A DNA stretch of 64,000 bases, taken from Neelides folsomi (Eukaryota; Arthropoda; Collembola; Neelipleona; Neelidae). The stretch's first letter is position 1, and each line of letters starts with the position of its first letter. The stretch is taken from the NCBI GenBank assembly GCA_034687125.1, contig JAQGBZ010000052.1, positions 186,001-250,000 on the forward strand, given 5' to 3'. Below the pieces are notes generated by a model. That model ran no database searches, was not told the DNA's origin, and saw nothing but the letters and a program-made list of their open reading frames with translations. A program made the position numbers and the translations under genes. Shown here piece by piece: positions 11,154-13,390 of the stretch.

Positions 11154-13390
11154 TCAACCAGATTCATTCGACACCTTTGGCATTTGAATGGTGAGGGAAT
11201 CCGTGTCGTCTCTGTATCCATTCGGATTCATCGTCTGCCACCGCCAGAAATCCTCACCTGCACCCAAACCATAAAAATCTTAATAAAAATCCAACATTTA
11301 ATTATAAAATAAAAAAAGGAAAGTTTCATTCATCAGTTAAACAAGAAGAAAAAGACAAATTACACATGCGCTCGAGACTAAAGGCAGCCCGCCAGCCCAA
11401 TTCTTCTTGGGCGAGGGTCGGGTTGGCAAACATTGATACAATGTCTCCGTCTCGTCTTGGCTCCAGTACGTACGGCACCTCAACTCCGGTCAAATTGCTG
11501 AATTGGTGGATGAGCTGAAGGACGCTGACCCCAACGCCGGTTCCAAGGTTGTACGTCTACGAATGTCAACCAACCCATTGTGAACAGCACATTCAAAAAA
11601 GCCCGCGCCCACAATCCTCTACTTTGGCCAACAAACGCTCCTGGAGGTTGAAAACACTCAAAAGTGTCAATTACACATCTGGTGAAGGGAACGCGTGGGG
11701 GTCCAGGAAAGTTCGCTCATGGCCCTTTGCCCATCACACAAAAGAGTCGCCACGTCGCCTTGTCTTCGTCCCCCTTCCTTTAGAGGGATTTGGGTCTTGG
11801 TGGCGGCTTCGAAAACTCGGACGAGTTGTCGGACGGAAACGCCGGACCCGAGGCCCACGTTAAACACCTAAGGATTATGACAAATGGTGGACATTTACTT
11901 ACCCTGTAGAAAAGTTGAGAGTTGAGGAGTTTTTTCAATGCTGCTACATGGCCAGAAGCCAAATCCATCACATGAATGTAATCTCTAACTCCTGTTTAAT
12001 TTAAGATAATTGGATTAATTACAATATTTAGTAAAATTAAAGATTTTATTAAATTAATAAATTAATTTTTTACCAGTTCCATCAACAGTGTCATAATCAC
12101 TTCCAAAGATTGTCACGAATGGTTTTTTTCCAAGAGCAACTTGTCCAATGTACGGCATGAGATTTGTAAACTCTTTGGTTGGATCTTCTCCGATAAGACC
12201 GGACGGATGAGCTCCAACAGGATTGAAATATCTCAATGCAATGATATTCCATTTCTAGAAGAAGAAAAAGTGTTGATGAATGTCAATTCAAAAGTATTAA
12301 AATAAATTGTACAGTTAGTACAGTAATCTATTACGGCAACTTCAAATCTACATTAATGTTTGGTTTTAATTATTATATATTTAAAAATAATATAGGAGTT
12401 TAAAGTTTCAAATGAAAAACTACCTGATTGGATGTTGAGAGGTCTTTAAGCATTTCTTCAATGAAATATTTTGTCCTCCCATAGACATTCGTCACATTGC
12501 CGGTCGGATGATCTTCCGTGATTGGAAGCGTCTCTGGATCTCCGTAGACACAACAAGAAGAGGAGAAGACAAGTTGATGGCAACCGACAGCTTCCATCGC
12601 CTATGCAACCAACAACATTCAATCCCATACATTCAACACCTTTAGATTTAACATGATATTTACATTTAAATATCATCATGGTGTAAAGGGTAGTGATTGA
12701 AATGAGGAAATGGAATAAGGAATGGTAATTGGGCGAATCGTCGTAATTTCATGGCCCGAGGTTGAATATTTGTGAGCCAGTCACCTCAAGCAGGTTCATC
12801 GTCCCAATGAGGTTGTTCTTGTAGTAAGCAAGCGGCAGCTCCATCGATTCTCCAACTGCCTTCATCGCTGCGAAGTGGATGACACAATCGATGTGATGCT
12901 GCAAGTTAAAATAGTGAGGAAATGAAATGAAATTTCATTTAATATACGTTTATGATTTAATTAACATAATGGTCGGTTTATTTCACCTGGTCAAAGATCT
13001 TTTTGAGTCGCCCCAAATCTAACAAATCACATTTGTAGAAGATCACTTCTTTCCCTGTGATCTTCTCAACTCTCTTCAGACTTGGAGCTCCTCCACTTGC
13101 CCCTGCCACACTACAATTTTTATTAAAAAGATTAAATAAAATAAATAGTTAGTAAAACTAATAGTTAAATCGTCTTAATTGACAGAATTTAAAAATAAAA
13201 AATCTTCTTATACAAATATCTGATTTGTCATATGATAAAAATATGAAAATTGTAATAATAAAAATAAATAATAAGTTAACCTGTTAGTAAAATTGTCAAT
13301 CGCCACAACTGAATATCCTGCATTGAGTAGCTCCAGTACACAATGGGAGCCAATGTATCCAGCCCCGCCGGTGACGAACACGGTCGGCAT
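11154..13390 (-). CDS. GALE: UDP-galactose 4-epimerase, with duplicated penultimate exon
   Basis: Interconverts UDP-galactose and UDP-glucose in the Leloir pathway; a cytosolic, NAD-dependent SDR enzyme. Exons are 13390-13281, 13110-12987, 12898-12785, 12600-12424, 12254-12074, 11991-11903, then either 11867-11675 or 11556-11364, then 11257-11154. Either choice gives 363 aa (human GALE is 348). The NAD-binding GGAGYIGSH is at residues 8-16. Other motifs are [11 protein letters not shown], the serine stretch [11 protein letters not shown], catalytic YGRTK (YxxxK), [12 protein letters not shown], and RRxGD in both alternative exons. ATG at 13390 begins MPTVFVTGG directly. The thirteen-residue C-terminal tail extension and the alternative exon are unusual; everything else is standard GALE. 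Confidence 0.97.
11364..11556 (-). other. GALE: GALE alternative exon 7b
   Basis: Also exactly 193 nt, entering in phase 0 after CGTAG and leaving in phase 1 at ATGT|GTAATT. It encodes [16 protein letters not shown] through SLERMC. It keeps the conserved YNLGTG, RRDGD and [12 protein letters not shown] blocks, so it is closer to canonical GALE than 7a. About 23 of 64 residues match 7a without gaps. Because 193 is not a multiple of three, joining 7a to 7b would shift the frame. Confidence 0.88.
11675..11867 (-). other. GALE: GALE alternative exon 7a
   Basis: This 193-nt exon has acceptor CCTTAG, enters in phase 0 and leaves in phase 1 at ATGT|GTAATT. It encodes [16 protein letters not shown] through SLHQMC. 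It keeps RRQGD and the SxL/W positions but diverges from known GALE at the loop after RRxGD ([10 protein letters not shown] instead of the usual ANP-type loop). It is the copy nearer the upstream exon and the more derived one. Confidence 0.85.

Follow-up and report, generated by a model that had tools for sequence, protein, structure and literature searches.

Tandem-duplicated exons that are used in a mutually exclusive manner are known from a survey of human genes (PMC5740500, PMC9741552) and from arthropod muscle myosin (PMC2257972), as described in the available parts of these papers. The nearest analogue that we have seen is COQ-2, for which the accessible part of the source reports that rhodoquinone users, C. 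elegans among them, alter the enzyme core and switch the choice of substrate by means of two mutually exclusive exons (PMC8659336). In the UDP-galactose 4-epimerase (GALE) family itself, alternative splicing has been reported for radish, with splice variants of Aspergillus flavus cited in the same paper, the available portion of which describes splice variants and no duplicated exclusive pair (PMC5496183). GALE is a textbook enzyme in which one position largely controls the substrate range. Among sugar-handling enzymes of other families, ketohexokinase (KHK-A and KHK-C) and the insect chitin synthase CHS1 have equal-length alternative exons, and there both expression and kinetics are known.

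We have analysed a window of 64,000 nucleotides of Neelides folsomi, located on contig C52 of an assembly of 75.1 Mb in 840 contigs, which contains a GALE gene with a duplicated penultimate exon. On the one hand, this gene resembles the known tandem-duplicated exon systems in that two homologous exons are adjacent, would be used one or the other, and would allow a single part of the protein to be finely adjusted. On the other hand, it differs from them in that exclusivity is a prediction from the DNA and in that one flanking intron measures 35 nt. It also differs from COQ-2, which is a prenyltransferase for which genome editing was used to test two residues (available part of PMC8659336), whereas the specificity of the window GALE is a prediction. 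In the literature that we searched, a mutually exclusive exon pair was found neither in GALE nor in any other sugar epimerase of the extended-SDR type. As far as searched, the exon pair is therefore new for GALE, while a tandem exon pair in an enzyme is already known. The first-pass annotation had known of no such arrangement in GALE; this stands for the exon pair in the papers searched, but splice variants of the enzyme were already in print. If the pair is a natural exon swap in such an enzyme, the animal would tune its sugar-nucleotide supply through splicing. The pair would also be a ready-made test of the pocket residues, and the 35-nt intron a test of the shortest intron that this animal can splice.

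The window GALE gene lies on the minus strand, from the ATG at 13390 to the stop at 11154. By translation and spliced alignment, we placed exon 1 (coding part with the ATG, 13281..13390), exon 2 (12987..13110), exon 3 (12785..12898), exon 4 with the SSSCCVYG and YxxxK motifs (12424..12600), exon 5 (12074..12254) and exon 6 (11903..11991), which ends in phase 0 at the AGG|GTAAGT junction. These are followed by the 35-nt intron (11868..11902), exon 7a (11675..11867, recognized by homology), an intron of 118 nt (11557..11674), exon 7b (11364..11556, recognized by homology and spliced alignment) and exon 8 (11154..11257), which carries the C terminus and stop and joins to 7a or 7b in phase 1. When human GALE was used as the query, spliced alignment chose 7b over 7a and gave the other junctions as those read by eye; its donor matrix was seeded with the donors of both GALE genes of this genome and three generic ones, and the agreement is thus not fully independent. 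Exon read-through, alternative donors of exon 6 and alternative acceptors of 7a were read by eye only, and the single other phase-0 donor noticed with an intron of ordinary length (CAT|GTAGCA, 81 nt) was rejected since it would delete about 15 residues. Spliced alignment was preferred over three approaches that we dropped, namely a consensus-pair intron histogram over 271.5 kb that had no power, a coding-score scan that drifted toward G+C-rich stretches, and a home-made gene finder. The last of these, with splice matrices seeded with sites of the window GALE gene itself, returned the exact borders of 7a and 7b but over-called tiny exons and placed a spurious exon between the two.

The exons 7a and 7b showed the anatomy that had been claimed for them. 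They are adjacent, each is 193 nt long, enters in phase 0 and leaves in phase 1, and both end at ATGT|GTAATT. Their proteins are identical at 23 of 64 residues (36%), and the identities at the first, second and third codon positions are 0.40, 0.53 and 0.33. The 64-residue segment lines the C5 sugar pocket and includes the RRxGD motif on the UDP side; both exons keep this motif, in agreement with the first-pass annotation. Considering that 193 is not a multiple of three, inclusion of both exons or of neither gives an early stop, as translation of all four splice combinations showed, in line with the one-or-other use that the first-pass annotation expected. With 7a alone or 7b alone, a GALE of 363 residues is formed, in which the codon at the junction with exon 8 is TGT (Cys330); with both, 25 residues of 7b are read in the wrong frame before a stop; and with neither, a stop follows nine residues of exon 8. 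The window GALE exon pair has the full anatomy and frame logic of mutual exclusion.

Both forms are recognizable as full-length members of the GALE family. Against the full-length model NCBIfam TIGR01179 (curated cut-off 262.3), the 7a form scored 408.4 bits and the 7b form 410.3; against the narrower GALE model NF007956/PRK10675 (cut-off 394), the 7b form passed with 407.6 and the 7a form fell under it with 387.9. With Pfam GDP_Man_Dehyd, the exon alone gave 19.5 bits for 7a, 18.2 for 7b and 17.1 for the corresponding segment of a second GALE gene on contig C25, all below the whole-protein cut-off of 27, as expected of a fragment. A search of the PDB with 7a alone returned 32 distinct sequences at E <= 0.001 (best 6.8e-9), every one of them named UDP-glucose/galactose 4-epimerase or GAL10, which places the homology of the two exons beyond chance. 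The same search with 7b returned 31 distinct sequences at this threshold (best 2.6e-18), with GALE names only. Like GALE/GalE in general (TIGR01179; human GALE 1HZJ), the window gene shows full-length homology, the NAD motif, RRxGD and Ser-Tyr-Lys. When both forms are aligned with human GALE, S131, Y156, K160, R299, R300, G302 and D303 are invariant, and we take S131, Y156 and K160 to be the catalytic Ser, Tyr and Lys.

The conservation of the segment was measured in 82 reference sequences, namely human GALE, the C25 protein and the 80 nearest of 583 bacterial GalE found, which are no fair sample of all GalE. With a conservation threshold of 80%, the segment has 28 positions, of which 7a keeps 18 and has lost 10, and 7b keeps 23. 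With a threshold of one half of the references there are 47 positions, and of these 7a keeps 23, 7b 29 and C25 31. Between 7a and 7b, pS was 0.755 and pN 0.527. We simulated neutral change with 20,000 runs per distance, taking 7b as the ancestor and letting one branch only change, and scored the runs in which the frame stayed open and at least 18 of the 28 residues, the number observed in 7a, were kept. Such runs made up 41%, 5.9% and 0.46% at 0.1, 0.2 and 0.3 changes per site, respectively, and none of the 20,000 at 0.5, 0.75 or 1.0. The simulated identity at third positions was 75% at 0.3 and 64% at 0.5 changes per site, and the observed one is 33%. Because 18 of 28 residues persist despite this low third-position identity, 7a is not explained by neutral drift. 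Judging from its sequence, 7a has been held as protein during most of its history; it may have been lost only recently, during the past 0.1-0.2 changes per site.

The weak point of the exon pair is the 35-nt intron that separates exon 6 from 7a. It is shorter than all 45 comparison introns predicted by spliced alignment in the same genome (53-517 nt, median 127). These comprise 35 kinesin introns, five of window GALE upstream of exon 6 and five of the C25 gene, and they are predicted by alignment rather than proved by RNA, with several low kinesin alignments (184-369). The kinesin introns came from 20 loci; we left out introns above 600 nt, those repeated where loci overlapped, and three of 36, 27 and 22 nt that read as coding sequence, and among comparison introns below 75 nt the sequence was read in four loci only. 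In 30 further intron lengths, taken as rough estimates from PF00118 and PF00270 exon tables, the smallest was 59. The intron is also shorter than the ultra-short introns of Drosophila, which have 40-50 nt and are spliced more slowly, and a minimum distance from donor to branch point exists for each organism, according to the available part of the report (PMC5762160). In the 35-nt intron, branch-point-like sequences were seen only at 8-11 nt from the AG, the donor is middling (rank 23 of 45) and the acceptor falls in the lower third (rank 13 of 45), where the donor ranks come from a matrix built from the same 45 introns. Considering its length against the minimum of 53, the use of 7a may be rare, or may have been lost recently. 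The intron would be either a slow gate, with 7b as the default, or a sign that 7a is no longer spliced.

The donor that 7a and 7b have in common, TGT|GTAATT, scored 0.32 and is weaker than 44 of the 45 comparison donors. This weakness comes in part from the protein, because a Cys that is invariant with respect to human GALE requires TGT at the exon end, and a weak shared donor is as expected for regulated exons. The acceptor of 7b is weak as well (rank 7 of 45). Searches for RNA folding, repeats and Rfam families revealed no regulatory element. No special RNA structure was found over the 391-nt stretch (z 0.76) or in its four pieces (-0.25, -0.79, -0.70 and 1.97), and Rfam gave no match at gathering level within 10500-14000; a direct repeat of 16 nt between 7a and 7b, matching at 13 of 16, may be due to chance. 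As a separate observation, the intron between the two exons (11557-11674) has a G+C of 0.46, whereas the gene's seven other introns range over 0.11-0.36; this perhaps represents a regulatory element, or conversion between the two copies with a bias towards GC.

On contig C25 (L004 5253-3602, minus strand), the genome has a second GALE gene, complete and canonical-looking, which encodes 362 aa in six exons. This gene, the 35-nt intron and the closer relation of 7b than of 7a to human GALE had gone unmentioned in the first-pass annotation. The exon 3/4, 4/5, 5/6 and 7/8 junctions are common to both genes; the C25 gene lacks the 2/3 and 6/7 junctions, so that exons 6 and 7 are fused, has its first junction elsewhere and has no duplicated exon. 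Over the aligned length, the identity to human GALE was 59.5% for C25, 56.9% for the 7b form and 54.5% for the 7a form. In the 64-residue segment, 7a is identical to 7b at 23 positions, to C25 at 25 and to human at 26, 7b is identical to C25 at 26 and to human at 34, and C25 and human agree at 32. The motifs SSSATVYG and PNN of the C25 protein correspond to SSSCCVYG and FTN in the window gene. Both forms of the window GALE thus carry A133C, T134C, P205F and N206T in human numbering, at positions that hold A in 78, T in 80, P in 80 and N in 79 of the 80 nearest of 583 bacterial GalE. In the window these replacements are seen as Cys-Cys for Ala-Thr in the exon at 12600-12424 and Phe-Thr for Pro-Asn before NLMP in the exon at 12254-12074. 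Since the two motifs depart from near-invariant positions, the window GALE is a derived copy in both of its forms. It is set apart from GALE/GalE as a derived paralogue by these four replacements, a bulky residue at position 307 and the duplicated penultimate exon. The replacements possibly indicate a changed reaction or substrate.

The origin of the pair was approached with a tree of the 64 columns, made from 31 rows (four, and every third of the distinct bacterial rows). In this tree 7b groups with human GALE (88/85), and 7a is unplaced and does not group with 7b; the branch lengths are 2.91 for 7a, 0.99 for 7b and 1.16 for C25. Most simply, the exon may have been duplicated in tandem, after which 7a would have changed fast.

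With regard to sugar specificity, the first-pass annotation had read Leu in 7a and Met in 7b at the position equivalent to human Cys307, and this is what we found; C25 has Ser. Among the nearest 80 of 583 bacterial GalE, the residue is Cys in 68, Ser in four, Phe in three, Asn in two, Tyr in two and Val in one, and neither Leu nor Met occurs in these 80. Dual enzymes have a small Cys or Ser at this position, and the E. coli and T. brucei enzymes that act on Glc/Gal only have a bulky Tyr or Leu there, as stated in the accessible part of PMC6668579. In Neisseria GalE, the available part of another study reports that S299F lowered UDP-GlcNAc conversion from 68% to 0.8% and that F300S raised it from 0.5% to 27% (PMC5349592). 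The small C5-pocket residue that marks group 2 (dual) GALE is thus replaced by Leu in 7a and Met in 7b, and C25 has it as Ser. By the rule of small and bulky residues, C25 would be a dual enzyme and 7a of the Glc/Gal type, and 7b with its Met is probably also of the Glc/Gal type. The loop beyond the pocket wall is CDGQRAM in 7a and ANPTLAQ in 7b.

We lean, with restrained confidence, towards the reading that the window GALE, one of two GALE genes of this animal, has a mutually exclusive exon pair in which 7b is the default and 7a is minor and regulated. In this case, exons 1-6 and the last exon would be joined by 7b or, less often and under regulation, by 7a, and two full-length epimerases differing only in 64 residues would result. 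Exclusivity would be enforced at least by the reading frame, and kinetics would probably add to it, as both exons have the same very weak donor and the short intron between exon 6 and 7a would slow direct joining, so that exon 6 would normally jump to 7b. The predicted preference is for UDP-Glc/UDP-Gal in both forms, with 7a altering the shape of the pocket and the following loop, and the UDP-GlcNAc/GalNAc work would be left to the C25 paralogue. A bolder picture, which we regard as unlikely in its entirety and offer tentatively, would be an exon switch in the GALE pocket, the first such GALE, in which the 35-nt intron serves as the slow gate, a helper splicing factor admits 7a, and two pocket shapes arise, which might serve another UDP-sugar such as a pentose or uronic one, while C25 provides a canonical dual-function GALE. 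The first-pass annotation had proposed instead that the choice of exon switches between UDP-Glc/Gal only and UDP-Glc/Gal plus UDP-GlcNAc/GalNAc. The exon does hold the C5-pocket position that sets the preference in the human, E. coli and Neisseria enzymes (PMC6668579, PMC5349592, in their available parts), Leu is a known residue of the Glc/Gal type, and Met is flexible; but Met is not among the small residues of the dual enzymes, neither Leu nor Met was seen in the bacterial comparison, and the four replacements outside the exon are common to both forms. Because Leu and Met are both bulky and the small Ser belongs to C25, such a split is less likely between the exons than between the genes, and we consider the proposed split between the exons improbable.

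The other alternatives concern the use of 7a itself. It is conceivable, though rather unlikely in our estimate, that 7a is a recently retired exon, which became unspliceable when its intron shrank to 35 nt and has had no time yet to decay, so that only 7b is used. An intron below every one in the comparison, the very long 7a branch, the loss of 10 of the 28 conserved residues, the score under the PRK10675 cut-off and the choice of 7b by the alignment with human GALE would all agree with retirement. These are opposed by the open frame of 7a, an intact donor identical to that of 7b, the nearly equal TIGR01179 score and a G+C of 0.58, compared with 0.34 in the genome sample. Moreover, neutral frames decay fast, only 54% of the neutral runs being open at 0.1 changes per site, and any retirement of 7a must therefore be recent. 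We give still less credence to 7a as a regulatory poison exon, which, when included together with 7b or when the 35-nt intron is retained, would lead to an early stop and less enzyme, the encoded protein being irrelevant. The early stops of the product with both exons and of read-through of the 35-nt intron (frame 11780-11995) and the weak donors would fit this role, but neither the persistence of the 7a protein sequence when third positions are only 33% identical nor its nearly equal TIGR01179 score would be expected of a poison exon, which we hold to be very improbable.

Several other features were observed in the window, the first four of them on the minus strand. A kinesin motor gene of several exons lies at 20624-22375 (contig C52:206624-208375), and pieces of a Tc5/jerky-type transposase, with HTH_Tnp_Tc5 and BrkDBD matches, lie at 24344-26182. 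A gustatory-type chemosensory receptor gene spans 32879-34367, with a 7tm_7 match at 32879-33412 and no Pfam match at 33504-34367; insect odorant-receptor matches were only three and weak in the whole genome, and this gene is one of them. Introns and chemosensory receptors mark the genome as that of an animal, and these receptor matches fit an arthropod outside the insects. At 37133-39874, a single open frame of 913 aa has many near-identical cysteine units and lies beside frames with Kunitz-like cysteine patterns (40034-43277); it appears papilin-like by eye only.
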